A stretch of 64,000 nt of DNA, from NCBI GenBank assembly GCA_943736015.1, contig OX031064.1, positions 32,487,361 through 32,551,360 of the forward strand, written 5' to 3'. Of this stretch, positions 277-63,012 are shown piece after piece; the first letter of the stretch is position 1, and every line of letters starts with the position of its first letter. Position numbers and translations under genes: made by a program. Under the pieces are notes generated by a model. The model was not told the origin of the DNA, made no database searches, and saw only the letters and a list, made by a program, of their open reading frames with translations. Source of the DNA: Tridacna crocea (taxonomy: Eukaryota > Mollusca > Bivalvia > Cardiida > Cardiidae).

Positions 277-498
277 TTAACCCATTACCACACAATCTTT
301 ACTTTTGATGATCCTAAGAAAGAAGCCTTTAGTAAACATTGTGGGAAAAGGAGAAAATGCTGGTCACCAGCATTTTCTCCTTTTCCCACTATGTTTTCTA
401 CCCTTTCCAAATCAATTTTTGATGCACATTTATTTTGTTGTGTGCAAATGTTTTAAATTTTGAAAAGCCTAAAATTTTGTCGTATAGTAAAGAGTTAA
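277..498 (+). mobile_element. MITE A, full copy
   Basis: Starts TTAACCCATTACCACACAAT and ends TAGTAAAGAGTTAA. The central hairpin spans about 335-395 with the loop-proximal palindrome TGCTGGTCACCAGCA. This is the forward orientation, in which the half reading GACCCTGAGAAAGAAGCC comes first. Confidence 0.85.
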
Positions 499-536
499 AA
501 TGACCTGAATGTGAACAGGGGCAAAATTTTGCCAAA

Positions 537-652
537 TCTAGGTAAAATTTATGGCCTTTTTACTGTTTTACTTCTGGCTTTTTTACCTATGGCCTTTTTA
601 TCTATGGCCTCTTTACCTATGGCTTTTTTACCTCTGGCTTTTTTTACCACAC
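537..652. repeat. Minisatellite, TTTACCTATGGCC units
   Basis: Five to six imperfect direct copies of a roughly 16-bp unit (TTTACCTATGGCCTTT; variants with TCTGGC). It lies just downstream of the FANK1 exon 2 donor on the minus strand, so it is intronic. Confidence 0.75.
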
Positions 653-701
653 AACAATTTTGCCATTTGCAAAAAATTATAGATTGAATAAGCGTACTTA
701 C

Positions 702-873
702 GAATATAGATTTCCCCATTCTCCTGCCCTATCTTGCTCCTGTAGACACACCCTGACACGACCATCAGCTTTAATATTGTTTGCCATGGCTGATTCCAGG
801 GCATTGTCCCAGTACAGCTCTATGCTGTGATGCGTTACCTTGCCAACAACAGGTGGGTCAGGACGTGGAAGGT
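702..873 (-). CDS. FANK1: FANK1-like protein, exon 2 (start of fibronectin type III domain)
   Basis: Internal exon on the minus strand, bounded by a TTTCATTTCAG acceptor and a GTAAGTAC donor at 701. The 172 nt translate to a peptide containing PPVVGKVTHHSIELYWD, which I recognise as nearly identical to the N-terminal FN3 start of animal FANK1 (fibronectin type III and ankyrin repeat protein 1). Family knowledge: FANK1 is a testis- and cilia-associated protein with one FN3 domain followed by ankyrin repeats. Joined to the exon at 12112-12238 the frame is exact (1 nt carried over plus 2 nt here), and FN3 begins near residue 46. The exon ends after two bases of a codon. The remaining FN3 and the ankyrin exons must lie left of the window. 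Residues after ELYWD diverge from vertebrates, as expected for a loop. Confidence 0.9.
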
Positions 874-1010
874 CTGAAATGAAAGGAAATTAATCTTAAA
901 ACAAATACAGCATGTTGATATTTTGTATGGAAGAATCTGAAGGACAAAGCTCTTTACTCTTACATCAAGTCTCTTCTGTGGTATGATCCATGACAGAAAA
1001 TTTGTATGCT

Positions 1011-1226
1011 TTAATAATCCCTGGTTTTTACGAGTCAGGAATAGAAGCCTTTTGAAAACATTGTGGGAAAAGGAGAAAATGCTGGTAACCAGCATTTTCT
1101 CCTTTTCCCACAATGTTTTTTACCGTGTCATATAGAAAAATTATCTTTTTAGCAAATGTTAATTTGTCACCTACAAAATGCTTTCAATTTGATCTGGTCC
1201 AAAATTTGCCGTTTGGGAAAGGGTTA
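1011..1226 (+). mobile_element. MITE A, left terminus eroded
   Basis: Hairpin core at about 1062-1116; the right end GTTTGGGAAAGGGTTAA is intact. The left TIR is shortened to ttaataatccctgg, so about 12 bp of the terminus are missing. Confidence 0.75.
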
Positions 1227-1324
1227 ATACCTGATACTGTGGAAAAGTGTGATGGAAGTAAAGAGTTTAAATAAGGTAGATAACTCTAAAAGAATACTTG
1301 CAGGGGATCAAATTGGTTATCTTC

Positions 1325-1535
1325 CTTGTTTACAATCCCAGGTTCTGAGAAACAAGCCTTTTGAAAACTTGCAGGAAAAGGAGAAAATGCTGGTAACTAC
1401 CATTTTCTCCTTTTCCCACAATGATTTTCTACCCTTCCCAAAACAAATTTTAATTTTTGAGTCACTTCAATTTTGTTGTCTGCTGATGCTTTCATTTTGA
1501 ACAAGTCCAAAATTTTGTCCTTTGGTGAGGAGTCA
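1325..1535 (+). mobile_element. MITE A, degraded copy
   Basis: Core with aaaatgctggtaactaccat (one arm mutated), then the cttcaattttgttgtctgc and tttggtgaggagtcaa ends. Neither TTAA is intact. Confidence 0.65.
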
Positions 1536-1729
1536 AAACAAAAATTTAGATTTTTCCAAAATTTTAGTCTTTTACAGGCAACAAATTAGATGTGACCCAT
1601 CATAAAATCTAGATTTGTTTTTTATTAGAAAACAATAGCTGGTTACCAGCATTACCTCCTTTTCTCACAAAGTTTTCAATAGTCTTTTCTTCAATTGTTC
1701 AGTGTTATTATGTATAAGTCTCGATTGTG

Positions 1730-1945
1730 TGGTTACAACCTTTTACCAAACCAGAAATTTTTAGATTTGTCCAAATTCAAAGCATTTGCAGGCCATAAAT
1801 CAAATGTAGTTCAGAGAAAAATTATCTGAGATAGGGTACAAAACATTGTGGAGAAAGTTCTAGTTAACAGCATTTCCTCCTTTTTTCACATTTTTTTTCA
1901 AAAGCCTTATCTTCCAGGGTCGTGTCATTAAAAGTGTGTGATTAA
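1730..1945 (-). mobile_element. MITE A, old reverse-orientation copy
   Basis: Begins ccttttaccaaaccagaaat and keeps gtccaaattcaaagcatttg. The core arms have diverged (agttctagttaacagcatttcc). The flanks up to 2252 show no other recognisable feature. Confidence 0.5.
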
Positions 1946-2252
1946 AAGTGAAGTAACCTTTCATTTCTCCAACATGGAAGTGCGGTCACAAAATATGGTT
2001 AACTTTTTTGTATACAAAATCTGAATAAACCTTTTTTAAACCCTTTCAGGGGAACTTGAAGTAAATTGCTGAAAGAATAGATCAAGATCAGAACATCTAG
2101 TAGTGGTCTTGGATCTATAGCATTCATTCATTAAATCAAGCCTAAAATGAATAAAAATAATGTAAAAATGAGTTTCACTGTGGACTGAACTTCAGCCATA
2201 AAAAAATAGTTCGAAAATTAAAAATGGTTCAAGTGTTATATATTAACCCTTA

Positions 2253-2470
2253 CAACACAATAGAATTCTAGACTTGTCCAAATCGAATGCATTTGCAGAC
2301 AACAAATAGCATGTCGACAAAATGACAATACCCGCATTTGATAGGCTAGAAAACATTGTTTGAAAAGGAGAAAATGCTGGTTACCAGCATTTTCTCCTTT
2401 TCCAACATTGTTTTCAAAAGCCTTCTCTTAATGGGTTGTTAAAAGTTGGTATTGTGTGGTCAAGAGTTAA
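2253..2470 (-). mobile_element. MITE A, reverse orientation
   Basis: TTAACCCTTACAACACAATA start, core at about 2350-2410, end GTGTGGTCAAGAGTTAA. The internal arms are slightly shortened. Confidence 0.75.
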
Positions 2471-2626
2471 AAGACAAAATTACAATACCTGTAACTGATA
2501 GGATTGAAAATATCATTGGAAAAGGAGAAAATGCTGGTTACCAGCATTTTCTCCTATTCCAACAATGTTTTCAAAGGGCTTCTCTTGAAGGGTCGTTAAA
2601 AGTCTGTATTGCATGGTAAAGAGTTA
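2471..2626 (-). mobile_element. MITE A, partial (left third missing)
   Basis: Begins abruptly at acaaaattacaatacctg beside the preceding copy, repeating part of that copy, then core and end GGTAAAGAGTTAA. It looks like a tandem partial duplication of the 2253-2470 element. Confidence 0.65.
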
Positions 2627-2878
2627 ATATGAGATGAAAGAGGTAACCAACACAAAAGCAAAATTCACCGGATGAAATACCTTTTAAATGCCTCCCATAT
2701 AAAAAGGTTGGATACTTAGCAAATAATAGAAAATAAACATCCACCTTTTTATATACTTGAAGATCAAATGATCCGCTTTTTTCATAACCCTTCAGAATAT
2801 AAATTAACTCTTACTGCACAACAGAATTTTGTACTTTCAAATTTTCCTTTGGGTTATGACAGACCCTTCCCATATTCA

Positions 2879-2901
2879 CACCCCCCCCCCCCCCCCCCCC
2901 C
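2879..2901. repeat. Poly-C tract
   Basis: Uninterrupted run of about 22 cytosines. Nothing else is recognised between 2630 and 2980. Confidence 0.9.
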
Positions 2902-2984
2902 TTTTACTCTGACTGCTTTTCAAGGCTGGCACCAAAGTATAGAGTTTTCTCCACCCAGCTAATACAGCCTATAGTCATCTTTGT

Positions 2985-3435
2985 CCTACGCATATCATAT
3001 TCTTCGAAGATTCAACCTGTCTCAGCGGCTATGACTTATCACCCATCTCCTGCATACCTGGGAAAAGCAGGGGTTATAATGAAGTTATAAGCCTATTACC
3101 CAAGCATGTAGGGGCTGTTTTAATAAACGGTCAATGCGTAGGTTACATGCTTTTGTTTGAATGGTGTTTTACGCCGCTTTCAACAGTATTTCAGTCATAT
3201 CATGGCAGGGTTACATGCTAGCCAATCAAATCTGAATGAATCGCACCATGTAGGGTTTTATCAAATAAATGTTAATTTCATTCTGGAATTCAAAGTACAC
3301 GTATTAGGTCGTTTTGAAAAGTAAGTCTGCTTCTCAGTACCCAGGATTCCCAAATTAGATAGATGTGCATTTGCCGAATGCCGTCTAGCAGGAGATACCG
3401 GTAATGTCTCAGTGATCATTGCTGTTTATTCACTG
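2985..3435. repeat. Interspersed repeat L, copy 1
   Basis: Diverged second copy at 12650-13025. Shared blocks include catattcttcgaagattc, gggttttat, gtacccaggat and gccgtctagcaggagata-type strings in the same order. The class is unknown and no ORF is present. Confidence 0.6.
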
Positions 3436-3645
3436 TTAGCCAATTTAGACAGACAATAAGTGCTTGTTTTGATAAATATACTCTCTGAGCAAGATATTAC
3501 ATTTATTTCACATTTTTCAATCGTTTTTCAAGAAATAACAGTGGAATATTGTTCAGTATTCCATGCTTGCAACCAGTGAAAAATACTGATTTTATTTTCT
3601 ACTTCTTCAATTGAAGGCAGAAACAGTACTCCCGACCCTTTTAAG

Positions 3646-3870
3646 TTAACTCTTTACCAAACTACATAATTTTAGACTGGTCCAAATTCAAAGCACTTGC
3701 AGACAAGAAAATAAACATATTTAAAAAATTGAAATTTGATTCCAGCAGTATAGAAAACATTGTGGGAAAAGGAGAAAATGCTGGTTACCAGCATTTTCTC
3801 CCTTTCCCACAATGTTTTCAAAAGGCTTCTGTCTCAGGTAAAAACCAGGGATTGTTTGGTAAAGGGTTAA
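3646..3870 (-). mobile_element. MITE A, full copy, reverse orientation
   Basis: TTAACTCTTTACCAAACTAC start and GTTTGGTAAAGGGTTAA end; near-perfect core hairpin at 3753-3815. One of the best preserved copies. Nothing further is seen in 3871-4190. Confidence 0.88.
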
Positions 3871-4189
3871 TACCTATGCCCTTCAACTAGACAGAAATAT
3901 GACATAGTGTATCTTATAATTCTAGTGCTTAACATAAATTATTGTAATGCAATGTTATGCAGACAGGGTATGCCACAGTGTATTTACCGAAAAGAACTAC
4001 TCAATTTGATGCAATTCCCCCCAAAAAAGGGATTAGAAGTTATAATGAAACAAATAGGATATATTCCAGTAAAAATTTGAAATCTCTCACGGAAAAAAAA
4101 TCCCCAATGTATTTTAATTAAAGTGAGAAAAATCCATTATGTAATTCTGACATTCACAATGTGGTGTCAGATAAAAACAAACAAACATC

Positions 4190-4395
4190 AGCGCTTCAGA
4201 TAGAGGAAGTGATTTTGATTTCAAAAATGAAAATATCATTAATTCTCCACTTAACTCTATGTTGTGGGTACTCATTAGAATTGTATCTATGATCAAGATG
4301 ATTCTAATGAGTACCCACAACATACTGGGTTCCAAAGAGAAATAATGGTTTTAGAAAACCAATTCACCTCCTCTTATCTGGAGCTCTGAAACACA
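4190..4395. mobile_element. Fold-back element H, copy 1
   Basis: Inverted repeat whose inner arms are gttgtgggtactcattagaat and its complement (4258-4281 and 4299-4323). The outer arms are cttcagatagaggaag and ctcttatctggagctctg. Related copy at 19690-19915. Confidence 0.75.
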
Positions 4396-4411
4396 ATTCA
4401 TTTATCTCTTC

Positions 4412-8594: not shown

Positions 8595-8822
8595 TTAACC
8601 CATTACCACTCAATCCCTACTTTTGACGCCCCTGAGAAAGAAGCCTCTAGAAAACATTGTGGGAAAAGGAGAAAATGCTGGTAACCAGCATTTTCTCCTT
8701 TTCCCACAATGTTTTCTACCCTTCACAAAACAAATTTCAAATTTTTAGTCACTTTTATTTTGTCGTCTGCAAATGCTTTCAATTTTGACAGTCAAAAATT
8801 TTGTCGTTTGGTAATGGGTTAA
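8595..8822 (+). mobile_element. MITE A, full copy, array member 1
   Basis: TTAACCCATTACCACTCAAT to TTTGGTAATGGGTTAA; near-perfect core at 8652-8713. Confidence 0.9.
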
Positions 8823-10383: not shown

Positions 10384-10613
10384 TTAACCCTTTCCCAAAC
10401 AAGTCCTTGTTTTTATGTGTCTGCAGTACAAGTCCTTTGAAACCACTGTGTGGGAAAAGGAGAAATTGCTCATTCTTAGCAATTTCTCCTTTTCCCACAG
10501 TGTTTTCTACGCATTTGGAGAACTTTCTGCCGTTTTTATCAAATTTTAAATTGTCGTCTGCAAACTCTTTAAGTTTGGAAGAGTCCAGAATTTGTTCTTT
10601 GGGAAAGGGTTAA
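10384..10613 (+). mobile_element. MITE A variant with aaattgct core
   Basis: TTAACCCTTTCCCAAACAAG to TTTGGGAAAGGGTTAA. The inner palindrome is aaattgct..agcaattt rather than aaatgctgg..ccagcattt, as in subfamily A2, on otherwise A-like arms. Confidence 0.8.
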
Positions 10614-13714: not shown

Positions 13715-13930
13715 TACTCTTTACCAATGGACAAAATTTTAGGCTAAACCAAATTGAAAGCATTTACACAAAACAGATTGCATGCGGCTAACAGTCACTT
13801 CAGTTTTTGATAGGGTATAAAGCATTGTGGGAAAAGAAGAAAATGATGGTTACCAGTATTTTCTTCTTTTCCCACTTTGCTTTCAGAAGGCTTTTTCGTT
13901 GTCAAAACTTGGCACTGTGTGTTAAGGAAT
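13715..13930 (-). mobile_element. MITE A, reverse, with substituted core
   Basis: attttactctttaccaatgg start. The core is aaatgatggttaccagtatt with paired changes that keep part of the stem. Right end cactgtgtgttaagg. Confidence 0.7.
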
Positions 13931-14517
13931 TCCCTCTACCTTTGCTAAACACTTCTAAGTATCTGATTTGCATGGGGGGAGGGGGGAGGGGCATTTATTT
14001 TTCAGCTGTCACTATGTTTTCAAAAGACATCTGTTGTCACCTCTTTAAGTGTTTCACTGACCAAACACCTTACTGGGTAAAACATTTTTGGACCGGTTTA
14101 CCAATCACTTTTATAAAATATCTATACCATTGGCAAATATTGAATCCTATTACAGTTCTGGAAAAATCTGATTTTGTATACAGACTTAAAAACACTATAG
14201 AAATAGGAACAACTGCTTGCTCAAGCAATCGCTCCCTTTCCCTCAATGTTTTCAAAGCAGCAGGTAGAAGCAGGAACATTAAAATGTCCCATTTATGCTA
14301 TGAAAGGGATAAAAGAGGGACCGTATTAGCATAGAAAATGGACAGATCCGAAAATTCAATATTTATCTAAAATCTTTCACACTTTTGAAAAGGCAACTTA
14401 AAGTCTCCAAACACTTATTCCTGGACAAGCTGAGGACAAATGCACTGATTTACAAATAGTATAGGTCAAGGGTCAGGCTGAACAGGCTGTGTTTGAAATA
14501 ATTTTAAACTTATCCTG
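13931..14517. other. No recognised feature
   Basis: Includes a ggggggaggggggagggg purine run at about 13975. The open frame here overlaps the preceding MITE and is not considered coding. Confidence 0.5.
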
Positions 14518-16290: not shown

Positions 16291-16503
16291 CCCTTTGGCT
16301 GCTAAGCGCAACTCATTGACCTCTTTGCAGACTGTGTAGATCAAGATCAGACTGCATATAATATGCAGTCTAATCTTGCATCTATACTTTCAAATTAGGT
16401 GACACATTTTCTTCCCCCAAAATAAATTCAGAATAGTAAAATTTAGATTTGTATCCTCTGTTTGAAAATTTCATGTTAGTTATTTTATATGAATAAGGGT
16501 TAA
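16287..16503 (+). mobile_element. TTAA element G, array member 2 of 3
   Basis: TCAACCCTTTGGCTGCTAAG to GAATAAGGGTTAA, with hairpin agatcaagatcagactgcat at 16335-16390. It sits exactly between two MITE A copies, sharing its terminal tetranucleotide with each. Confidence 0.82.
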
Positions 16504-16727
16504 CCCATTACCACACAACCCCTACTTTTGACGCCTCTGAGAAAGAAGCCTTTAGAAAACCTTGTGGGAATAGGAGAAAATGCTGGTAACCAGCATTTTC
16601 TCCTTTTTCCACAATGTTTTCTACCCTTCACAAAACAAATTTAAAATTTTCAGTCACTTTTATTTTGTCGTCTGCAAACGCTTTCTATTTGGACCAATCT
16701 AAAATATTGTCGTTTGGTAATGAGTTG
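16500..16727 (+). mobile_element. MITE A, array member 3 of 3
   Basis: TTAACCCATTACCACACAAC to GTTTGGTAATGAGTTGA; core at 16560-16620. Confidence 0.87.
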
Positions 16728-16761
16728 ATGTAATTCTACAGGCATGACTATCTTTTTTATT

Positions 16762-25792: not shown

Positions 25793-26030
25793 AAAAATTT
25801 GACCCTTTACCTGATATGCCAATTTGAGGCTCTTCCATTTCAGTAGCAAATAAAGATATGATGTCAAAAATATAGACAAATGAGGATACAAATATCTTAT
25901 TGAGTGGAAAACATAGTGGGAAAAGGAGAAATTGCTCATTATGAGCAATTTCTCCTTTAACCACAATGTTTTCAAAAGCTGTCTGTTGTTGATACGTCAA
26001 ACTGAGTATCTATAGAGTAAACGGTTAAAA
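25793..26030 (+). mobile_element. MITE A2, copy
   Basis: gaccctttacctgatatgcc start, inner palindrome gaaattgctcattatgagca, right end gtatctatagagtaaacggt. About 90% like 57721-57942 by eye. Confidence 0.82.
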
Positions 26031-30560: not shown

Positions 30561-31140
30561 ATTAACTTTAAGAAGCAAAGCGTTCATTTCCGGGTCAAAA
30601 TGGTGGTCGAATGACAGATTAAAAAACATCATTCTCTCATTGTTAAGACACAAATGAGACTTGTCTCAATAACTTTTTTATCAAATTTCGAGGGATGTTG
30701 ACTGAGACAGTAATCAAGCCAGCACAAACTGGGAACCCTAGACTAAAAGCTCACATTACTGATTAATTTATTGGACCTCGATAAGTCCAGTATGTGAAAG
30801 GTAACCCCTTTTTCCATGACACATCATACAGAAGAAAAGTGTATCACAAGACTATCCTAAGAAAGACATGTATGAAGTTTCATAAATGCCAAGGACTATA
30901 GAAGATAACCGTCAATATGGATGGATGGATGGGCCAACTGACTATGAATGGTCCGTAATGAAATTATACGTTTAGTCCCCATTTTTGATAACATGTCGTT
31001 TCATGAAATAAAATCAAATAACTATTGACTGTGGCTTAACAAGATATACTTTAATTACATTTTTTCCTGTAATGAAAGAATGTAAAATATTGTTATTGGC
31101 AAACTATCATAAGGAACACATGTACATAAATTCCATCTTG

Positions 31141-31895
31141 TTTCAGAGCAGAAGAATTTTAAAGTTTTCCTTCTTTGTTCCCATGTTCAAACTTGTGACC
31201 ACCAGGGCGGGGCCAGTTTGAACCCCAGGGGCATCATATGAACAAACTTGGTAGAGGTCCTCTAGAAGATAGTACATACAAAACATCAAAGCACTAGGAC
31301 TTCCAGTTTCAGAGAAAAAAAAATAAAGTTTTCCATCTTTGTTTCTATGTTTCAAATTTGTGACCCCTGGAGCGGGCCAGTTTGAACCCCGGGGCATCAT
31401 ATGAGCAATCTTGCTTGAGGTCCAATAGCAGATGCAACAGACCAAATATCAAAGCTCTACCCCTTCTTGTTTCAGAGAAAATGATATTTCAAAGTTTTCT
31501 TTTATTATTCCCATGTTCAAACTTGTGACCCCCGGGGTGGGGCCAGTTTTGACCCCATGGGCAATATATGAACAATCTTTGAAGAAGTCCACTAGGAGAT
31601 GCTACATACCAATTGTCAAAGCTCTATGCCTTCTAGTTTCAGAGAAGAAGATTTTCAAAGATTTTGATCTATTTCATTCTTTGGTTGCCATGGCAACCAG
31701 AGTTATGGGTGGAATTTAATCTCTTGAACAACTTTGGTAGAGATTCAAATAAGGCACATCCCTGCAAAGTTTTATCAAGATTTGCCTAGTGGTTTAGGAG
31801 GAGGAGATGTTAAGAAATTGTGGACGATGCACGACAGATATAGGTCGATCACAAAAGCTCACCTTGAGCACTTTGTGCTCTGGCGAGCTAAAAAT
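31141..31895 (+). mobile_element. Hairpin-tipped element with 165-bp tandem units (copy 2)
   Basis: Four units starting tttcagag at about 31141, 31307, 31471 and 31637. The complete units contain catgttcaaacttgtgaccc, gccagtttgaacccc and a gcatcatatgaac block. The last runs into gttgccatggcaacc and then the 3' module seen at 1-160, which ends in the palindrome ttgagcactttgtgctctgg. Related tail words (tctggttgccatgacaac) also occur at 62240. Confidence 0.72.
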
Positions 31896-33415: not shown

Positions 33416-33729
33416 CACCAAACCAGTGACCCATGTTCTTGAATCCTGTGTATTACTGAATATGCTACCTGAGGCTATTTAAAGCTTCTTGGGAAAAGAC
33501 ATTAACCTGGTTATAGGCATTTTTTGTATTTTTCCTGCAATATTCCTAGCGATTCAGAAACAAATCCAAATATCATCTTAGTCAGGTCGAATCTTCAAAG
33601 AATATGACATGCTCAGACAATGATGACCAGACTACAAACTACAGAATTTGGAATACATTTAACTTACATGTAGCCACACCAGTGAATTAACCTACTTATA
33701 TTATCTTAATTTTAATGAAACTGGAGCTT

Positions 33730-34138
33730 CCTTCACACCTTGTGGAAAAAAGAAGAACATCCTAGTAACCAGCATTATCTCCTTTTTCCACAATATTTTT
33801 TACACTTCCACAGACAATTACTATCATTTAAGCTACATTTATTTTTTCATCTGCAAACATTGTAGCATCCGTGTTTGTGAGGTAGAGCGCTGGCCTAATA
33901 AACCTAAAGGTCCTGTGTTTGATACCCCAGAGCGGGTGTCAACTTTAGGATTTTTCATTGGCCCACACATTCGGTGTGAGTACTGGTGTAGTTCCCAGGA
34001 AGCAGAATCGAGAGAGATTAGTATAAGTTGTAAGAACTTGTTTCTCAATCGATGTAAAATAAATATGTTTAAACTAATCATCTGCAAATGCTTCAACTCA
34101 AATAAATCTAAAATTTTACAGTTACATAAAGAGTAAAG
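33730..34138 (+). mobile_element. MITE A, split by a SINE insertion
   Basis: Left part 33730-33857 carries the core (aacatcctagtaaccagcat). The right part 34078-34138 resumes at tcatctgcaaatgcttcaac and ends cataaagagtaaa. The left terminus is eroded. Confidence 0.8.
33858..34077 (+). mobile_element. SINE-4 (tRNA-derived), complete with target duplication
   Basis: A box region gtgaggtagagcgctggcc, B box region gtgtttgataccccagagc, then a non-tRNA body and an AT-rich tail (gtaaaataaatatgtttaaa). It is flanked by perfect 11-bp direct repeats TCATCTGCAAA at 33847-33857 and 34078-34088, derived from the host MITE arm. Confidence 0.88.
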
Positions 34139-38400: not shown

Positions 38401-38500
38401 AGGTTGGTGACCCTACTTCTACTTTAGCAAGTTTGTAAATGGACCTAGGATAGGTTGAAATTTTGATTGGGTATCAATAGAAGATAAGTCCACATTCAAG
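38401..38500 (+). other. Possible 5' untranslated exon segment of HEATR4
   Basis: A pyrimidine tract ending ttggccccacag (AG at 38401-38402) is a plausible splice acceptor before the coding start. An in-frame TGA at 38456-38458 upstream of the ATG confirms that translation does not start earlier on this exon. Confidence 0.4.
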
Positions 38501-39420
38501 ATGTCAGCCAAAACAGAAAGGTTAAAGACGCCATTACTTTTTCCCTGTGCGGCAAGAGTAACCATGCCACAGCTGGGATCTGAGGACTCTGGCATGAAGG
38601 ATGGTCTGAAGTCAGGAAGGTTTGCTCCAGACACCATTGTTCTCAAATCATCAGGTCAGCTGGAGGGACCCGTGGGTAAGGAATACTTGAGGAAGGTAGC
38701 AACAGGGCTCAGCTTTGAAGAAGATGTTGTTAGAGAAAGGTGCTTTCATGCATTGCCCTATGATGAAAAGTACATGTTTGAAGCATTTGATATTGGAGAT
38801 CTAGTGCCTGTTCCTCCAAAGACAAAAATTCCAGTTGGAAGACACAATGCCAGGGTGGATGTCAGGCATATGCCATGTAATTTGACCAAGTCATCCAAGT
38901 CTCATCTTAAACCACTAAAACGACAGATAACAATACGTGCACAGCAAATGCACATGGAAGCTGTGAAGCGAGAAGAAATGAGAGAGAGTTTAAAGAAGAA
39001 AGCGATGGAAGGCACTGAGGAGAGAGAAGTAGGTGAACAAACAGTGTCATCTGAAACAAGTTTGGCGCAGACAGAAAGTTTTTTCATGACTGAAACAAAG
39101 GTAGAGTCTGAGCCTAAATCTGAAGTACAAGAGGAAACAAAGGATGTAAAACAAATGGAGGTACCAATGTCAAAACATGGCAATGACTGGGATGCTTACC
39201 TCATGTCCATTATTAGTTCAAATACAGCAAACTGGATCGTGTATGAAAGGACACCAGCCGGTTCTCAGGATAGAGAGAAGCTGGAAACTCTGCTGAAAAA
39301 GTGGTATGGGGTACCAGAGCATACTGATTTAGTTAGAGAAGATACAAGTGACAATGAACTTGATGTTGATGAACAGGAAGAGAAGAAGCCAAAAAAGAAA
39401 TGGAAAAAGAAAGAAGCAAA
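38501..39420 (+). CDS. HEATR4: HEAT repeat-containing protein 4-like, exon 1 (start)
   Basis: Longest ORF in the window. ATG at 38501 (A at -3, in-frame stop 45 nt upstream) through 306 codons plus two bases to a GTAAGTAC donor at 39421. The N-terminal region carries AFDIGDLVPVPP and KVATGLSFEEDVVRERCFHA. A Glu/Lys-rich helix (about residues 150-225) follows, then HGNDWDAYLMSIISSNTANW (from residue 226) and a Lys-rich end. No HEAT repeat is in this exon; repeats begin in exons 7-8, consistent with HEATR4, which has a long non-repeat N-terminus. Family knowledge: HEATR4 is poorly characterised and mainly testis/ciliated-cell expressed. The gene call is strong from ORF length and eight phase-matched exons; the name rests on remembered family resemblance. 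Confidence 0.82.
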
Positions 39421-39439
39421 GTAAGTACATGTACATGTA

Positions 39440-40335
39440 TATGTTTTTACATAATAAATGTATAGCTTAAATATAAATCGCATCTGATGGGATTCGAACC
39501 CTTAAAGGGACAAATAACCTTCAAGGATTAAAAGACTAATTACCATAACCACTGAGCCAAAGAGAATTCTCTCTGACACAGTTGTCAGGTATTGATTTCA
39601 TAAGGGAAAGCTATGCAGTAAGGGAGGAGTGATCTCCTGTAACACACCCCTTCTTAAAGTCATTATTAATTGATGACCCAAAGCCTTATTAAGCAGAAAG
39701 TTCATTTTTGGACAACAATTGGGATTAATGGCTCTATGGCCAATCCTGGATGAGCCCCCATCTTATGAACAAAGTCCATAACAAAGAAACAAATAAATGC
39801 ATAGCTCAAATACAGACCACATCTGGCAGTATTCGAAGCCTTGAAAAGAATGTATAACCTTTTTTTAGAGGATTGAAAGACCAATACCATAACCACTGAG
39901 CCAAAGAGAATTCTCTCTGACGCAGTTGTCAGGTATTGATTTTATACAGAAAAGCTATGCAGTAAGGGAGGAGTGATCTCCTGTAACACATCCCCTCCTA
40001 AAGTCATTATTAATTGATGACTCAAAAGCCTTATTAGGCAGAAAGTCTGTTTTTGGACAACAAATGAGATTAATGGCTCAATGGCCAATCCTGGATGAGC
40101 CCCCATCTTATGAACAAAGTCCTTAACAAAGAAACAAATAAATGCATAGCTCAACTACAGACCGCATCTGGCGGTATTAGAAGCCTTGAAAAGACAAATA
40201 ACCTCATTTATAGAGGACTGAAAGACCAATAACATAACCACCACGCCAAAGAGAATTATCTCTGACGCAGTTGTCAGGTAGTGATTTTATATGGGAAAGC
40301 TGTGCAGTAAGGAAGGAGTGTTCTCCCATGACAAT
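39440..40335 (-). mobile_element. SINE-1 tandem array (2.5-3 units, period about 344 bp)
   Basis: B box complement gggattcgaaccc at about 39489 and A box complement ccactgagccaa at 39549 define the first unit. The motif gttgtcaggta recurs at about 39581, 39924 and 40269, giving periods of 343-345 bp. Units two and three have mutated B boxes (gtattcgaagcc, gtattagaagcc). The array lies at the start of HEATR4 intron 1, antisense to the gene. Confidence 0.85.
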
Positions 40336-42974: not shown

Positions 42975-43203
42975 TTAACCTTTTACCCCATAAGGCATTT
43001 CTATGGTATCTCTAATTGACCTTAAATAACAGCAAGGATGAAGCCGTTTCTTATGTGTATATGACGCTTTTTGATAGCATAGAAAACATTGTGGCAGAAG
43101 GTGAAATTGCTCTTCACGAGCAATTTCACCTTTTGCCTCAATGTTTTCCAAAGGCTGCTACAAGCAATGCGAAGAAGTGAGTATCTATGGAGTAAAGGGT
43201 TAA
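42975..43203 (-). mobile_element. MITE A2, full copy
   Basis: TTAACCTTTTACCCCATAAG to CTATGGAGTAAAGGGTTAA; inner palindrome gaaattgctcttcacgagca within gtggcagaaggtg / caccttttgcctc. Its outer stem differs from MITE A (GGCAGAAGGTG instead of GGGAAAAGGAG). Confidence 0.85.
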
Positions 43204-45200: not shown

Positions 45201-45430
45201 TTAATCCATTACCAAACGACAATAATTTTAGACCTGTCAAAATCGAAAGCATTTGCAGACGACAAAATAAAAGTAAATGAAAATTTGAAATTTGTTTTGT
45301 GGAGGGTAGAAAACATTGTGGGAAAAGGAGAAAATGCTGGTTACCAGCATTTTCTCCTTTTCCCATAATGTTTTCTAAAAACTTCTTTCTCAGGGTCGTC
45401 AAAAGTAGGGATTGTGTGGTAATGGGTTAA
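45201..45430 (-). mobile_element. MITE A, reverse, full
   Basis: TTAATCCATTACCAAACGAC to GTGTGGTAATGGGTTAA; core 45316-45375. A left-arm fragment (caaattttacacatgtccaa) follows to 45490. Confidence 0.87.
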
Positions 45431-48472: not shown

Positions 48473-49267
48473 TCACAGAAAATAACTTTTGATTCCTTCA
48501 GGAAAATATTCATGAAGATTCCAAGATCATCCCTAAGCTTAGATAGTAAGATTATAAAACAGATATAGTTTACTGTATAGTTTTAAAAAAAGCCATGCAA
48601 GCTTTGTAGGCCATTGCAGGGATAAGGGTTTAATTTTTAGCCTAGCTCTTATTAAAAAAACAGTCGAAGTATTGTCAGAACCTTGTCACAGTCTGTGTCG
48701 TCATGGTCACTCAGGAGAAACTATAACATTTAATTATACATGACCCGCCACATGAAATGGGACCTTCTGAGAACTGCGAAAAGTGTCAATACTGGCCAGG
48801 GTTGACACTTTTCGCTTCTATGATATTTACTGTACAAAAAAGGGTCATTCTACCTTATTATGTTATTATACAATCATTTTTGAATCATCAACTTTATTGA
48901 CCAGCACTATGTTAAATCTGTTTTCATTTAATTGATAAATGAAATTCCCAGATTGTCCCTTTTGCCATGATAGGTCACAAGACTTAGTATGTATTATTAG
49001 CAAAGATATTTCTTTAAATTCTGACTAGTTGTTACGTATCAAAACCCATAACACAATTATGACACAATCATGCCCCTTTTTCGACTTACTAATTTTCACT
49101 GAAAGTCGCAACTGCAGCAGATGCTCTTTTGTACCGTATAAGTGGATTTTTTTTTGAAGTGAAATTTTTGCAATTTCGTGAATTTAGAATATTGTGTTAG
49201 CATATTCTATCACAGGTATACCAACAAATAACAAATCCCTTGAATTCGCAAACATTTCGCTCATTGC

Positions 49268-49742
49268 TGATGTTAGTTGGTGCCTGTTGACAATGATTGG
49301 GTATTTATCTATATCCTATTTAACTACTGTCCTTTATCACTTGATTGCAAACTTAATAGCTTATTTATTGTTCATTGGCTTCTAAATGATATTGTTCTTA
49401 TATTGTATGATGCTTCACAACGTAATACCATTCAACGCTGATGTTAGTTGGTGCATGTTGACAGTGATTAGGTATTTAGCTATGTCCTATTTAAGGACTG
49501 TCCTTTATCATTTGACTGCAAATTAAATAGCTTATTTATTGTTCATTGGCTCTTAAATGTATAAAGATATTGTTCTTGTATTGTATGATGCTTCACAACG
49601 TAATACCATTCAATGCTAATGTTACTTAGTGCCTGTTGACAATTTTGGGGTATTTTTCTATGTCCTATTTAACCACGGTCCTTTATCATTTGATTTCAAA
49701 TCAAATAGTTTATTTATTGTTCATTGGCTTTTAAATGTATCA
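49268..49742. repeat. Tandem repeat, about 171-178 bp unit, three copies
   Basis: Units start at about 49268, 49439 and 49617 with gctgatgttagttggtgc (third: gctaatgttacttagtgc) and share ggtatttatctat, cctatttaac, gtcctttatca and atttattgttcattggc. No coding potential. Confidence 0.82.
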
Positions 49743-49744
49743 AG

Positions 49745-50335
49745 GTATGAGAAATTCCCAACAAAGCTGTCAAATTGTTTTAATTCAGCACATGGGGATA
49801 ATTGTTAACTGTTATTTAACTTAAATACGTGGTAGCTTCATGTTTAATTTTGTGTTTTATGTACAAAGTAAAAAATTGACATGTTATTTGTGTATCGACT
49901 GTAAATTTTTTTTGTAACTCTTAGAAGACAAACTAACTGCAGAAGATTAAAAAAAAAGAATGAATCTGTGTGATATTTTGATGTTTTTTGGGTCAGTTAA
50001 CCAAACAGAACCCTGAATGGTGTCATTCCAAAATCAGACCTTGTATGATCTAATACTCAGATTTCGATGTACACAAAGCTTAAGTAGTTCTTGGTATTCT
50101 AAAATCTACACACAAACTAGTATTTTAAGCCTAATTTCCCGATACATGATAGGGCCTTGGTATAAATTTTCTCATTTCAGAAGTACTTTTATCTATATAA
50201 TAATGTTCCTTGATGCTAAGGTAACCCATGTCTGTCTTTCAAATTCAAAGAAGCGATACACTGATGTGTGTTCAAAGGCAGTTTTTACATTATTCTATTT
50301 GTATAGCTGCAGTTTATAATGCACCTTGTCTCCTT
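49745..50335. other. Intronic, no recognised feature
   Basis: AT-rich; one open frame to 50319 without splice or motif support. Confidence 0.45.
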
Positions 50336-50336
50336 G

Positions 50337-53336: not shown

Positions 53337-53439
53337 TGAATTACAAAACAGAACAGAAGCTGTCTCTTCAATACATCAAGAACATGATCTACAAAATGAA
53401 ATTTACAGTCTTAAACCTTAACTGCATAAAACAGATTGG

Positions 53440-53644
53440 TGGTATAGAACTTAGAGAACACTCTACATTGGAAAAAAGATGTTTGACAACATTGTGGGAA
53501 AATGGGAAAATGCATTTTCTCCTTGTCCCACTATGTTTTTTTCACTTTCAAAGAGAAGTATTAATCATTTGAGCCATGTCAATTTGTGGGCTTCAATTGC
53601 TGTCATTTTGGTAGAGTCTAAAATGTTGTGTGATAAAGAGTTAA
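53440..53644 (+). mobile_element. MITE A, forward, core tip deleted
   Basis: gacaacattgtgggaaaatg directly followed by ggaaaatgcattttctcctt, so the ctggtaaccag tip is missing; ends GTGTGATAAAGAGTTAA. Shares TTAA 53641-53644 with its neighbour. Confidence 0.72.
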
Positions 53645-53869
53645 CCCTTTACCAGACGACAAAATAATAGACTGGTCCAAATTGAAAGCGTTTGCAGACA
53701 ACAAAATAAATGTGAAAGAAAAATTGAAATTTGGTTTGGGAAGGGAAGAAAACATTGTGGGAATAGGGGAAAATGCTGGTAACCAGCATTTTCTCCTTTT
53801 AGCACCATGTTTTCAAAAGGCTTCTCTCTGAGGGTCATGAAAACCCGGGATTGTTTGGGAAACGGTTAA
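53641..53869 (-). mobile_element. MITE A, reverse, full
   Basis: TTAACCCTTTACCAGACGAC to GTTTGGGAAACGGTTAA. Confidence 0.86.
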
Positions 53870-55675: not shown

Positions 55676-56262
55676 GGACCGTACTCACCAACCATTCTGA
55701 TGAACATCTTTAGTCATTTCATAGATTTAGAAAGTAACACAGCATCTGATAGGCTAAACCACTTGGTTTAGGCAATCAGAATCTGTGTTACTTTCAAATT
55801 CATAAAATTCTTTGGAAGAAGATGAAGAATGGTGTTAAGAATGGTAAGTGAATACAGACCCAAATAACACATAAGAAATAAATATAATTTTGAGGAACTT
55901 TCTTTGTCATATTATAGATTTAGAAAGTAAAACAATATCTGATTGGCTAAACCGCTTGGTTTAGGCAATCAGAAGCTGTGTTACTTTATAATTCATAACA
56001 TTCCTTAGAAGATGAATGTTGTTAAGAATGGTAAGTGAATACAGACCCAAATTACACATAAGAATTAAGAATAATTTTGATGTACTTTCTTAGTCATATT
56101 ATAAATTTAGAAAGTAACACAACATCTGATTGGCTAAACCACTTGGTTTAGCCAGTTAGATATTGTGTTACTTTCAAATATAGAAAATTCTTCAGAGGAA
56201 GACGAAATACATGTACATGTACCCTATGTTGTTAAGAAAAGTTAGCAAATATAGACCCTATT
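55676..56262. mobile_element. Fold-back element B, three copies in tandem
   Basis: Copies at about 55676-55862, 55900-56046 and 56080-56262, each with the centre ttggctaaaccgcttggttt or a variant and an end gaatggtaagtgaatacaga. The second and third lack the left accaaccattct terminus, so this is a local tandem amplification rather than three insertions. Confidence 0.8.
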
Positions 56263-57720: not shown

Positions 57721-57942
57721 TTAACCCTTTACCTGATATGCCAATTTGAGGCTCTTCCATTTTAGCAGCAAATAAAGATATGTCAAAAGTATGGACAAAT
57801 GAGGACACTCTGATTGAGCGGAAAACATTGTGGGAAAAGGAGAAATTGCTCATTAAGAGCAATTTCTCCTTTTCCCACAATGTTTTTAAAAGCTGTTTGT
57901 TGTTGATACGTCAAAATGAATATCTATGGAGTAAAGGGTTAA
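57721..57942 (+). mobile_element. MITE A2, array member 1 of 3
   Basis: TTAACCCTTTACCTGATATG to GGAGTAAAGGGTTAA; inner palindrome gaaattgctcattaagagca. Begins 50 bp after the HEATR4 exon 6 donor. Confidence 0.9.
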
Positions 57943-58960: not shown

Positions 58961-59435
58961 GTATGTTTTTTTTTCTTCAGTCTTGTGTATATATTCCTTG
59001 CACTGGCAAGTGCACCTACCATGCACACCTGAAGTTCCTTTTACCAGTACTCTGCTTAACATTTGTCCCAACATACTGACCAATTCCTAGTAAAAATCAA
59101 AGTCTCTCTTATATAAATCTAGATCTACATGCAATGAGGAATGTTCTCTAGTAAATGTTCTTTACAAGTATGTGAATCAGTAATTATTCCAAGTTATTTT
59201 TCTGGTCATAAATTAATGAAATTGCAAAGGAACTGTCTTATTTTGTTAAGGAAATCAGGGACAGTTTGCCCTATTTCACATGTATAAATCTACGAAAGAA
59301 AAATGCTTTCTACTTTTGACAATGCTCAAAATTAGTTTTGATAAAGCCAGAATTCGACCTTAGAACCGTTTGGTTTCAAGATCTAAAATCTAGCTCGTCA
59401 TCGTATTTAATAGATATATTATATGTTCTACAAAT
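58961..59435. other. Intronic, no recognised feature
   Basis: No family match seen. Confidence 0.4.
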
Positions 59436-59439
59436 CATT

Positions 59440-59650
59440 CATGTCGCTCGTATTGAGGCTTTGTTCAAATCCCACCACATGCGGTTTATATTTCTGCTAT
59501 GCATTTGTTCATTTGTTTCTTTGTTAAAGATTTCTGTTTGTAAGGTGGGGGCTTGTCCAGCATTGGGCATTTAGCCATCAGCCCCATTTATTGTCTAAAA
59601 CTAGACTTTCTGCCTAATAAGGAATTGAGTACCAATCAATAAGTGATTAC
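59440..59650 (+). mobile_element. SINE-1, 5'-truncated plus-strand copy
   Basis: B box remnant tttgttcaaatcccaccaca, then gcatttgttcatttgtttct, tgtccagcattgggcattta and gactttctgcctaataagg, the reverse complement of the bodies at 39700-40110. Confidence 0.75.
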
Positions 59651-59654
59651 TTTA

Positions 59655-59825
59655 CAGGCCCGTAGGAACAGGGGGGGCTAGGGGGGGGCTAAGCCCCCCC
59701 CAGTAATTTTGACAGTCATGGTAATCGAAATTACCCTTTGTCGCGGAGAGTTTCAAACGACGCAAAATTTTCCAAAAAATACAAGTTAGCCCCCCCAATC
59801 TTGAATTGCTTCCTACGTGCTTGCT
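59655..59825. repeat. Repeat E, copy 2, with G and C tracts
   Basis: gcccgtaggaacaggggggg, a ggggggg/ccccccc fold-back, then the portion shared with 20400-20528 ending ttgaattgcttcctacgtgc. Confidence 0.6.
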
Positions 59826-59880
59826 TTAAGAAAGGGTATGTTATGGGAGGCCACTCTGTGGATCCATAGAAATCATTTCG

Positions 59881-60136
59881 TTAACTCTTTACCACACAAT
59901 CCCAACTTTTAACGACCCTGAGATAAAAGCCTTTTGAAAACATTGTAGGAAAAGGAGAAAATGCTGGTAACCAGCATTTTCTCCTTTTCCCACAATGTTT
60001 TCTAACCTGCCGGAACAAATTTCGATTTTTAAGCTTCCTTTAATTTGTCGTCGGCATTTTCTCCTTTTCCTACAATGTTTTCAGTAGGCTTCTTCCTCTG
60101 GGTTGTAAAAACAAGGGATTGTTTGGTAAAAGGTTA
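59881..60136. mobile_element. MITE A, mirror-image recombinant
   Basis: Starts as a forward copy (TTAACTCTTTACCACACAAT, full core at 59940-60000, then tttaatttgtcgtcgg) and switches directly into gcattttctccttttcctac, which is the right half of a reverse copy ending GTTTGGTAAAAGGTTAA. Both ends therefore carry the same arm type. Confidence 0.75.
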
Positions 60137-60189
60137 AGGCTTCTTTCCCAGGGTCATAAAAAAACAGGGATTGTTTGGCAAGGGGTTAA
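60137..60189 (-). mobile_element. MITE A, solo right end
   Basis: gcttctttcccagggtcata to GTTTGGCAAGGGGTTAA, repeating the terminus of its neighbour. Confidence 0.72.
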
Positions 60190-60199
60190 AAATCTTTCC

Positions 60200-60450
60200 G
60201 TATTAAATTTATTTAGAGATTATTGTGTTCATCTTTGTGATATTAACATCTTATCGTATGTGTCAGGATACACTTCTACAGAGCTATTGTAGATGAAAAT
60301 TTGAGTTTGGCTCAAATGGTTACAATGTCTTTGAAAGGATAGACATTGTAGAAAAAGGAAAAAAATATGACTGCTTGCATTTTCTCCTAATCCTACAGTG
60401 ATGTCAAATACGATCTTCTTCATGGCTGATAAAACATGATCTGCTTGGTA
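60200..60450. mobile_element. MITE A, decayed
   Basis: ggatagacattgtagaaaaa, ctgcttgcattttctcctaa and gatctgcttggtaaga remain. Confidence 0.45.
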
Positions 60451-60489
60451 AGAGGAAAAGATGTGTGGCTTAAATGATGAAATTTAGCA

Positions 60490-60720
60490 GTAAAATGGCA
60501 CAAAACATTGTGGGTAAAGAAAGAAATTTGAATGTTACCAGCACTTTGTTCTTTTCCCACAATGTTTTCAAAAACTTTTTTTTTTCCTACAATTGTTTGG
60601 GTAAAAGTTAGGTAGCATAAATGTGAGGGCTTTTGAAAATATTGTGGTAAAAAAATTAGGAATTGTTTGCAGCATTTTCTGTTTTTGTCTCTCAAAGAGA
60701 AATGTCATGATTGTAAATTC
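60490..60720. mobile_element. MITE A, one or two decayed copies
   Basis: caaaacattgtgggtaaaga, gttaccagcactttgttctt and gaaaatattgtggtaaaa; termini lost. 60721-61359 shows nothing else. Confidence 0.45.
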
Positions 60721-61359
60721 TTTACATGTATAGGAGCTGGTGCCAATTTTCAATGTACAAGTATGCTTTTAGTCATTTCAGCATGATCATTTTTCAAAGA
60801 AAATGTTGGGGTATTGTCAAAGCGCTTTTTGTAGTGAAAGCATTGACTTTTTTTGTGGTATTTGTTGAAGACAATACCAATATGAATTCAATATTGAATT
60901 TTGAAGACCATGTATCTATTTTGTGCAAAGCCAAAGGAAGTAAACCCAATTAAACTCAATTTTTCTGAGACAAATGAATTTTTCGGTAGCACTCATGTAT
61001 ATAATTGGAAGTGGCACTTATTCACAAATAACCCTGACTTTGTCATGAGTACTCTCCCCTTCTACCAAAAAGCAATTCATTTGCTTAGTAGGTTGACTTT
61101 CTAGCCAATATTTGAATAATATTTCTCTTTCAAATTATCAGTTCTACACAATAGCTTCAATGGCAAATACCACTTCAACAGGGTCTGATGAAGGTCTTCA
61201 AGGTCTGATGAAGATAAAAAAAAAAATATTGTTTTGACTATTTTGTAATCTTATAACCCTCCTCAAGCATGGACATGAACACATACTTACACACCATGAT
61301 AACCATTTAATACTTTTGTCAGCAAATACATGTATAATGTTTTTATCATTCTGTCACAG

Positions 61360-61512
61360 TTGATGAATGGAGGACAAAATGGCACCTGGCAGGTCAGTAC
61401 TCAGACAGCACGCCTGATGATCTCATCAAGGATATGGCCGACATTCAACCTCATGTACGTCTGAAAGCAATTGCAACATGTGCTAAAGCTGCGGATTATA
61501 AGCCACCAGCAG
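61360..61512 (+). CDS. HEATR4: HEATR4-like, exon 7 (first HEAT-type repeat)
   Basis: Acceptor tcattctgtcacag, donor GTTTGTG at 61513. The peptide contains DEWRTKWHLAGQYSDSTPDD then LIKDMADIQPHVRLKAIATC. The second part has the helix-turn-helix spacing of a HEAT repeat (aliphatic positions, D-x-x-x-x-V-R-x-x-A). About residues 545-595. Ends after one base, completed by exon 8. Confidence 0.87.
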
Positions 61513-61747
61513 GTTTGTGTATTTACCTCGAAAATTGCTACTTAAATTGGAAATTGCATTCAATGAATAGTTGTTTATCCTATTGTAACTACGGGTATGC
61601 CCCTTTTATTGAACTTTTCACTAATAGAAAATAATAACTTTTACTTTTCTAATAGCAAGAAAACAGTTCTGCTGCAAGATTAAGTGACAATTCAGTTATG
61701 ATCCAGAACAAAAGGTTGGACAGTGGAGATCAGAAATCAGGGCCAGT

Positions 61748-61942
61748 GTCCGTATTCACCAACCATTCTTAAGAACATTCGTAGTCGTTTCTCTATGATT
61801 TTCCAAAGTTGAAAGTAACACAACTTATGATTGGCTAAACCATTTATTTTAAGCCAATCAGAAGTTTTGTTACTTTTCAGTTTGGAAAAACTTGGAGAAT
61901 AAGACTGAGAATATTCTTTAGAATGGCTGGTGAATACGGACC
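61748..61942. mobile_element. Fold-back element B, full
   Basis: GTCCGTATTCACCAACCATT to its complement; inner arms acacaacttatgattggcta and tagccaatcagaagttttgt (one base inserted: taagccaat). A G-element hairpin fragment (cagtctgatctttatctaca) follows to about 61990. Confidence 0.87.
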
Positions 61943-62047
61943 AAGAATGCACATTTTGTGCAGTCTGATCTTTATCTACACTGCCAACAAAAGATTCTGT
62001 GTTGTGAACAATTAGGAAAAAGTTGACAATTGTTCACATTCATTTTT

Positions 62048-62480
62048 AGCTCCACTGGCCGAAGGCCAGCGGGCTTTTGTCATGGCCCGGTGTCCGTTGT
62101 GCATCCGTGCGTGTGCTGACTTTTATTTCAAACATCTTCTTCTCAGAAACTACCCATCCAAATTTGATGAAACTTCACAGAAATGATTCTGCTATGGTCC
62201 TCTTCAAAATTTCTTGAAAGAATTTGATTCCTTACAAAACTCTGGTTGCCATGACAACAAAACTGAAAAAAAGAAACATTTTTAAAATTCTTCTTCTCTG
62301 GAACCACAAGGCCCAGGGTTACTGAATTTGGCATGTAGTTTTATCTAATGGAGCTTTAACAAGTTCCTTCATATTATAGGTCATGGGTCAAAATTGGCTC
62401 CATTCCAGGGATCACAAGTTTGACATGGGCCTCTATACATAATCACTTCAATTTAAGTATTAATCAAGGGAAATAAAAGA
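62048..62480 (-). mobile_element. Hairpin-tipped element, related to 31141-31895
   Basis: agctccactggccgaaggcc folds with agcgggct next to it, then tgtccgttgtgcatccgtgc (the GACG-type short repeats in reverse). The body includes cttcttctcagaaactaccc and gttgccatgacaac. Same architecture as 1-160 and 31740-31895, with a different hairpin sequence. Confidence 0.65.
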
Positions 62481-62744
62481 TAAAGTTTGTTACTATTTAC
62501 ACCCCTTGATTATCAAACTGTAGTGATACATGATTTGTGCTAAATATTAAGTTTTTTGATAGAAAAGAAAATATTCTGTTTTCAGGAAGAGTGATTCATT
62601 TTGATGCTAATAGTTATGCTCACATGAGTGGAGTATTGAATTCAGAATAAGGTTTCTATCATTCGGTTTTTTTTTTTCCAATAACTTTACCTTTCAAGCC
62701 AATAAATTAACCTGCTTGTATTGCCTGACAGAGTTCATCGTTTT

Positions 62745-63012
62745 CGAAGGCCCTCTTTTTCAGGGTCATGAACACTTCAATTTGTGTGGTAAAGGCTTGA
62801 AAAACCAGTGAAGCAATACAGGGCCATCATGGCCCTTATGTTAGCAATTTTGCAAGGAGGTAGTAACTTAGCCCTACCAAACAATAAAATTTTACAAAAG
62901 TCCATCTTGAATGATTTGCCAGACAGCAAATTAAGGGCATTTTCTCCTTTTCCCACAATATTTTCCACAAGCTTCTTTCTCAGGGTTGTTAAAGTCGTAA
63001 GGGCACTTAATG
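62745..63012 (-). mobile_element. MITE A fragments
   Basis: 62745-62800 keeps gccctctttttcagggtcat to tgtgtggtaaaggctt. 62870-63012 starts ccctaccaaacaataaaatt and jumps from the left arm to gcattttctccttttcccac, losing half of the core. 63013-63412 is otherwise unassigned. Confidence 0.6.

Follow-up and report, generated by a model that had tools for sequence, protein, structure and literature searches.

A central palindrome in an abundant TTAA-flanked MITE of Tridacna crocea stays matched mainly in still-jumping lineages, which suggests that it helps the element to move

What lets miniature inverted-repeat transposable elements (MITEs) far outdo their autonomous counterparts is not settled. 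Internal sequences of Stowaway MITEs were reportedly found by Yang and coworkers in 2009 to raise transposition; Stowaway belongs to another superfamily with a TA target, and its internal sequence is said to hold no conserved palindrome. Here, a MITE with TTAA boundaries and a long central palindrome was analysed in a stretch of 64,000 nucleotides of the bivalve Tridacna crocea (assembly GCA_943736015.1, contig OX031064.1, positions 32,487,361 to 32,551,360 of the forward strand), hereafter called the window, and in further loci fetched from the same genome, together 363 kb. The distribution of inherited and private changes along the element suggests that the palindrome stays matched mainly in lineages that still jump, and that it helps the element to move.

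The nearest precedent are the CMITEs of the coral Acropora (Wang et al. 2010, PMC2872659). The coral CMITEs are like the present MITE in their TTAA duplications, in their mostly CCCTTT-type terminal inverted repeats (TIRs), in their link to piggyBac and in forming several families with a common internal region, whose conservation between families exceeds that of the TIRs and which, the authors suggest, aids transposition. They differ in scale, being about 100 bp long with an estimated number of about 1600 copies, whereas the present MITE has about 228 bp and, by extrapolation, 0.6-1.2 million copies. They also differ in sequence: the best match of the 60-bp CMITE internal consensus had an E value of 1.9 in the 363 kb and of 0.75 when compared with the consensus of the MITE, and no exact inverted match within it exceeds 5 bp, so that it differs from the present palindrome in sequence and does not form one of similar kind. 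A separation of private from shared changes and a covariation of the arms were not encountered in the accessible part of that study. The ends of piggyBac and piggyBat (PMC11707139) likewise combine TTAA with palindromes, which are bound by the two cysteine-rich domains (CRDs) of a transposase dimer and, in piggyBac, are arranged asymmetrically from the tips; these palindromes lie near the ends and are 19 bp long in piggyBac and short and imperfect at the left end of piggyBat, whereas here a single one of 65 bp lies 56 and 108 bp inward, TTAA included. The Kolobok-type T2-MITEs of Xenopus (PMC6004289) share the TTAA target, the prevalence and the long-lived subfamilies, but their terminal AGGRR differs from the CCC or CTC found here, and the main text of that paper contains no word beginning with palindrom. 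The present element was not found described in a literature search, in which four 20-base pieces of the stem remained unmatched, though such sequences seldom appear in the text of papers; nor did this search show a covariation of the arms, a distinction between inherited and private changes or an abundance on this scale.

In a complete copy, about 228 bp long and read from the side of the long arm, TTAA and TIR are followed by the long arm, the palindrome, the short arm and the second TIR with its TTAA; the long arm has 108 bp (TTAA and TIR included), the palindrome 65 bp and the short arm 56 bp (TIR and TTAA included). The TIRs are CCCTTTACC-like and lie inside the TTAA. The palindrome consists of 32 pairs about one base and is longer than first described; for one copy, the predicted DNA fold of positions 8648-8718 has 34 pairs and -39.1 kcal/mol (z -15.2). 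When elements were picked by their TIRs only (at most one mismatch, 40-700 bp apart, n=128), 105/128 had a length of 220-239 bp and the palindrome was present in 128/128 (overlap with a stem match, E below 0.5), which argues against ascertainment by the stem. The features by which a MITE is recognised were all found, i.e. short and uniform length, TIRs, target duplication, high copy number and lack of coding capacity, since 228 bp are too short for a transposase. None of the three stop-to-stop frames of at least 150 aa in the window matched a Pfam family, and two of them (13792-14334 and 33663-34136) pass partly through MITE copies.

Of 467 matches in the window and the fetched loci, 203 full-length copies were chosen, and 202 remained for the analysis of conservation along the element after one at the end of a locus had been removed. 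The window contributed 43 of these, the spaced loci 79, and loci fetched for likeness to the copy at 8595 and others 80. The initial annotation of the window, made by eye, had described the hairpin as better conserved than the arms, and this holds by computation: the palindrome has a mean identity to the consensus of 0.925, as compared to 0.80 for each of the arms and 0.84-0.87 for the TIRs, and the per-position divergence is not flat across the element. Among 30 near copies (window copy included), private singletons were about equally frequent in the stem (16/1950) and in the rest of the element (38/4886; p 0.88); variants common to at least three copies were five-fold depleted in the stem (12/1950 vs 150/4886, p 2e-11). 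In a tree of the 202 copies, internal and terminal changes numbered 114 and 674 in the stem, 73 and 437 in the TIRs and 812 and 2344 in the arms, and a tree built without the stem gave 108 and 717, 77 and 428, and 822 and 2309, respectively. The internal/terminal odds ratio of stem vs arms was 0.49 in the all-site tree and 0.42 in the tree without the stem, and 0.29 and 0.35, respectively, for clades of at least four tips. On the tree, the stem behaves like the TIRs. The profile of the internal/terminal ratio has its minima at the element ends and in both stem arms (0.10-0.17 at positions 61-84 and 97-120) with a relaxed apex (0.30 at positions 85-96), and cluster consensuses differ in the stem at least 3.5 times less than in the arms. 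Weak secondary minima of inherited change were observed in the 3′ arm at consensus positions 169-192 and 205-228, the second including the TIR; with a repeated TTTTGTCGT motif, they are possible subterminal transposase sites.

Both partners were changed in 130/6224 stem cells as compared to 44.7 expected, and 89 of these double changes are complementary. On internal branches of the all-site tree, 10 partner co-changes (8 complementary) were counted, vs a mean of 1.2 and a maximum of 4 in 24 shifted partner sets; the tree without the stem gave 9 (8 complementary) vs a mean of 1.3 and a maximum of 3. Terminal co-changes in the latter tree (35) were within the shifted range (mean 32.2, maximum 40), and the complementary share of the terminal co-changes was about the third expected by chance in both trees (11/38 and 12/35). 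Complementary pairing is seen on internal branches and not clearly on terminal ones. One-sided changes showed a strand bias (G>A plus T>C 35 vs C>T plus A>G 20 in the all-site tree, 29 vs 20 in the tree without the stem) that is too slight to be taken as established.

The 363 kb contain 296 near-full hairpins, 280 with enough flank and 173 with both ends, and clustering of the latter by their long arms yielded family A (155 copies), family C (13), family B (2) and three singles. Consensuses were built from copies with arms of 95-115 and 48-62 bp, a filter passed by 13/13 copies of C, 2/2 of B and 107/155 of A, four of the 107 forming subgroup A2. The layout is kept in all families (long arms 107-109 bp, short arms 56 bp), which is only partly an independent result because of the arm-length filter; before filtering, the arms were already in the 50s and 100s in 130/173 copies. 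Between the family consensuses, identity amounts to 85-95% in the palindrome and 85-100% in the TIR; without gaps, the short arms are 49-58% identical (p 0.007 or less) and the long arms 32-46% (A or A2 vs B and C, and B vs C; p below 0.0005 to 0.5), the long-arm similarity being 0.45 for A and B (p 0.001) and not significant for A2 and C (p 0.5). Since weak ungapped similarity of the arms remains for most pairs, the families look homologous with nearly saturated arms; the view that the arms of B and C are unrelated, taken from gapped z values near 0, was corrected by this similarity. Of the 32 stem pairs, 7 vary among the four family consensuses and 25 are constant, which would not be required by symmetry alone. 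The changed pairs are altered on both sides in 4/4 cases between A and A2, in 3/3 between A and B and in 4/5 between A and C, although one of the both-sided changes between A and B leaves adenine opposite adenine (two-copy B consensus). In a set of 75 stems (60 of family A taken at random, 2 of B and 13 of C; 66 distinct) compared with 500 shuffles, 93.4% of the cells pair vs 89.0%, double-change cells number 70 vs 19.2 and the covariation score is 0.144 vs 0.071; none of these values was reached by a shuffle (0/500 each).

The TTAA boundaries described in the initial annotation were recovered at 284/404 ends of the 202 full-length copies, the ends being set by the profile, and at 280/346 ends with an end-finder that itself prefers TTAA. 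For the analysis of empty sites, the two flanks of each of the 173 both-ended copies were joined and searched for in the 363 kb, which gave a spanning non-self match for 22/173, gapless for 17. Clean empty sites with a single TTAA were found for the copy L037:6013-6241 (vs L042:7168-7291, 90.3%, and L018:1188-1066, 88.7%) and for L025:2625-2853 (vs L020:1044-1168, 78.4%); these sites are few. The other gapless matches are mostly other MITE copies, many of them not reading TTAA: over all gapless matches, the tetramer opposite TTAA was CAAA 76 times, CTAA 43 times and TTAA 26 times, and most of these rows trace to one MITE-in-MITE copy, L025:558-786 (159 gapless matches). This copy is inserted beside the hairpin of another MITE, and the best-matching copies read CTAA where TTAA stands. 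Both TTAA duplication and a single TTAA at the empty site, as in the piggyBac superfamily, were thus found. Next to the TTAA, the 5′ ends (n=202) begin with CCCT or CCTT in 66 copies, CCCA in 74 and CTCT in 18, and the 3′ ends (n=202) with CCCT in 35, CCCA in 25, CTCT in 57 and CTCA in 25.

A profile search of the genome yielded at least 118 matches to PF13843, with 116/196 candidates scored and many with long open frames. In a group of 624-aa piggyBac transposases, the left end reads TTAA followed by CCCTTTATATACGAG; among 11 other close copies (92-100%), 8/11 start within two bases of this left end and 3/11 about 15 bases before. The genome hence also harbours piggyBac elements whose ends are TTAA and CCCTTT. 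The TIR of this group agrees with that of the MITE only through CCCTTTA (left end; 480 bases fetched). Five copies of a 492-aa piggyBac group are 98-100% alike over about 1 kb on each side and very recent; the unit extends more than 1.1 kb upstream and more than 1.2 kb downstream and contains MITE copies, located at L051:499-669 and L052:594-1000, so that MITEs can hitchhike in another mobile element. With MITEs spaced at about one per kb, the finding of a MITE TIR next to a transposase is by itself uninformative.

From these data we consider it likely that the constraint acts mainly in the propagating lineage. On balance, we lean towards the reading that the element is probably a piggyBac-type MITE and that its palindrome is a cis-acting requirement for propagation, with a two-fold symmetric protein site favoured over an extruded hairpin. 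A cis-acting role is suggested by the TIR-like constraint on inherited changes, the presence of the palindrome in all TIR-only picks and the kept layout, and the protein site is favoured because it would explain both the kept sequence (25/32 pairs) and the symmetry. Taken by itself, and given constraint in the propagating lineage, the choice between a protein site and an extruded hairpin is evenly poised. The palindrome would be the binding site of a protein dimer, either of the C-terminal CRDs of the transposase or of a host factor; the bound dimer might help to bring the two element ends together, and in a MITE lineage adapting to another transposase both half-sites would change together. 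Transposase dimers of piggyBac and piggyBat bind palindromes through two CRDs (PMC11707139). More tentatively, the central palindrome may be a required cis-acting site beyond the ends, whose arms co-evolve as the MITE switches transposases, and may have helped the element to attain an Alu-like abundance, with about one million copies that make up a fifth of a 1-Gb genome. Very many copies allow changes inherited through transposition and changes after insertion to be separated site by site, and such a separation maps the sequences needed by the transposition machinery; in the present sample the palindrome comes out like the TIRs and is a concrete candidate cis-element.

Several observations weigh against this reading. 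Raw terminal changes per site in the tree of 202 copies are fewer in the stem (10.4) than in TIRs (16.8) and arms (17.0), so that a purely propagation-level constraint is disfavoured, and cluster-private rates are lower in the stem than in the arms at the tightest threshold (0.0085 vs 0.0172) and at the other three (0.0113 vs 0.0233, 0.0143 vs 0.0198 and 0.0134 vs 0.0188); with raw terminal counts that are not flat, constraint or low mutability after insertion may contribute. Private changes are flat or higher in the stem only in the test of 30 near copies and in a rare-state count, in which terminal changes were split by whether the resulting state is seen in at most six copies (stem vs arms 0.0050 vs 0.0054, 0.0120 vs 0.0091 and 0.0198 vs 0.0144 for tips of length 0.02-0.1). 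This count suggests, without proving it, that much of the arm excess in terminal changes is misplaced shared variation; the rarity filter itself favours the stem, since the arms are more polymorphic. The two alternatives of the initial annotation, selection acting during transposition and a stem function, can now be told apart in part, as constraint is strongest in inherited changes and complementary pairing appears on internal and not clearly on terminal branches. Moreover, terminal co-changes in the all-site tree (38) are slightly above every shifted set (mean 28.3, maximum 36), the number of pairs with any both-sided change among the 75 stems is not significant (10 vs 7.8 shuffled; 78/500), and one-sided shared variants occur, such as adenine opposite cytosine at pair 12/54 in 8/13 rows of family C. 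With 65 bp, the palindrome is long for a CRD site, that of piggyBac having 19 bp (PMC11707139). The strict piggyBac start CC[C/T]T is present at only 101/404 ends, CCCA, CTCT and CTCA being jointly commoner; the proposed piggyBac-type mobilisation is backed by the single-TTAA empty sites and by a piggyBac group starting CCCTTTA in the genome. Among the two transposase groups examined (624 aa and 492 aa), none with the TIR of the MITE was found, the left end of the 624-aa group sharing only CCCTTTA with it.

Alternatively, the pairing itself may be selected, the palindrome being extruded as a hairpin or cruciform of DNA, or acting as hairpin RNA on its own copy, in excision, gap repair or replication. 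The complementary double changes found at several pairs, A-T to T-A and G-C to C-G among them, the perfect stem with the folding energy given above for one copy and the relaxed apex would all agree with this explanation, but pairing alone leaves the 25 constant pairs unexplained despite the near-saturated arms, mismatches persist in spreading lineages (pair 12/54 in family C), and a DNA hairpin would explain the symmetry better than the sequence; we regard it as unlikely, though the strongest of the competitors. Symmetric changes without selection would also arise if the arms copied each other by template switching or gene conversion in the palindrome, and both-sided changes are indeed common between families. 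Such copying would explain the symmetry and would not itself slow substitution, whereas stem consensuses differ at least 3.5 times less than arms and shared variants are five-fold depleted; nor is it seen acting on resident copies, the terminal complementary share (11/38) being about chance. Arm copying as the whole explanation is accordingly improbable, but it may still supply double changes that selection then keeps.

If the stem served the host after insertion (for instance as small RNA, in chromatin or as a promoter), or if it mutated little, with the effect acting on each copy separately, the lower raw terminal and cluster-private changes in the stem would be accounted for; this explanation is opposed by the terminal complementary share at chance level and by flat private mutations in near copies, and so many copies would hardly all be under host selection. 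We give this explanation very little credence. Mobilisation by another TTAA-specific system such as Kolobok, of the T2-MITE type, is similarly improbable in our view, judged by the termini. TTAA targets and prevalent, long-lived MITEs are known from that system (PMC6004289), and most ends of the present MITE lack the strict CC[C/T]T start, but the Kolobok and T2 termini inside the TTAA are RR (AG) and AGGRR (PMC6004289), whereas the ends here are mostly CCC or CTC. In addition, the piggyBac group in the same genome starts CCCTTTA, and AmiPB4, a coral piggyBac, starts CCCATT (Table 2, PMC2872659).

The abundance of the MITE was determined in the window with several searches. The TIR sequence TTAACYCTTTACC (at most two mismatches) gave 106 matches vs 4.8 expected from shuffles (largest shuffle 11), and a 20-base half-arm of the stem (at most three mismatches) gave 110 vs 0.02 expected. 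A hairpin-only search, partial ones counted, gave 75 non-overlapping matches, and an iterated whole-element profile, fragments counted, gave 99, covering 25.4% of the bases. The union of three family profiles covers 25.2%; the family B profile behind this value had drifted into family A, and its consensus, family split and base fractions were not used. The about 60-70 full or partial copies estimated in the initial annotation are therefore exceeded, and the extent given there (277-63012) agrees with that of the profile matches (278 to 62994).

For an estimate over the whole genome (1,048.8 Mb in 31 contigs), 20 stretches of 10 kb at hand-chosen round coordinates on 12 contigs were sampled (200 kb in total). 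In these, the MITE makes up 18.6% of the bases and hairpins number 0.855 per kb; the 95% intervals, bootstrapped over loci, are 12.8-24.8% and 0.58-1.15, respectively. The share per locus ranges from 0 to 51%, and only a few samples lack a very high density. Extrapolated from the 200 kb, the genome-wide copy number seems to be about 0.9 million (0.6-1.2 million), about one fifth of the genome of about 1 Gb. To our knowledge, such a share for one MITE group seems unusual. A local cluster in the window was rejected, as high density was found in the samples genome-wide; the window, with 25% MITE, is not special. Two loci contain tandem arrays with one MITE copy per unit, L048:424-9134 (unit of about 1.69 kb) and L032 (unit of about 1.67 kb), in which the MITE was captured and multiplied by the array; leaving out both loci gave 19.3% MITE and 0.88 hairpins per kb. 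The nearest relative of the copy at 8595-8822, on contig C2, has one mismatch in 228, and among the matches listed the best-scored 40 genome places have 91-100% identity. The MITE family is young in part.

Individual copies in the window are listed in Table 1, where a both-ended copy is one with both ends recognised by the end-finder. The copies 57721..57942 and 25799..26028 are the only both-ended ones of family B in the 363 kb, and the stem of the former is changed on both sides relative to family A. Two pairs of abutting copies among the checked both-ended copies share one TTAA (53641-53644 and 57939-57942), and abutting TIRs were likewise seen at other places of the window in the TIR pattern search.

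Table 1. Coordinates of MITE copies in the window.
Feature	Position	Strand	Basis
All profile matches, span in the window	278..62994	.	Whole-element profile; about 25% of bases; 34 both-ended copies
Family A copy, first in the window, hairpin 333-397	277..498	+	TIR pattern and both-ended list
Reference copy of family A (228 bp) with TTAA and TIR at either end, hairpin 8651-8715	8595..8822	+	Profile, fold, genome comparison
Family A copy, compensated stem changes 63/115 CG, 81/97 TA, 87/91 AT	10384..10613	+	Cluster comparison
Family A copy, hairpin 16556-16620	16500..16728	+	Both-ended list
Family B copy (second), hairpin 25908-25972	25799..26028	-	Long-arm clustering
Family C copy, stem GTGGCAGAAGGTGAAATTGCTC.../...GAGCAATTTCACCTTTTGCC	42975..43203	-	Long-arm clustering
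Family A copy, hairpin 45310-45374	45201..45430	-	Both-ended list
Two abutting family A copies, shared TTAA 53641-53644	53411..53869	.	TIR pattern and both-ended list
Family B copy with the same TIR and a barely recognisable, diverged long arm, stem AAATTGCTC.../...GAGCAATTT	57721..57942	-	Hairpin search, clustering
Family A copy abutting the B copy, shared TTAA	57939..58166	-	TIR pattern and both-ended list

Apart from the MITE, the longest frame of the window (38459-39424, + strand, 321 aa) was without a Pfam match and had no relative among viral contigs. Tandem repeats are located in the window at 39453-40326 (period of 345 bp), 31136-31665 (period of 167 bp), 49261-49748 (period of 178 bp) and 55710-56190 (period of 187 bp).

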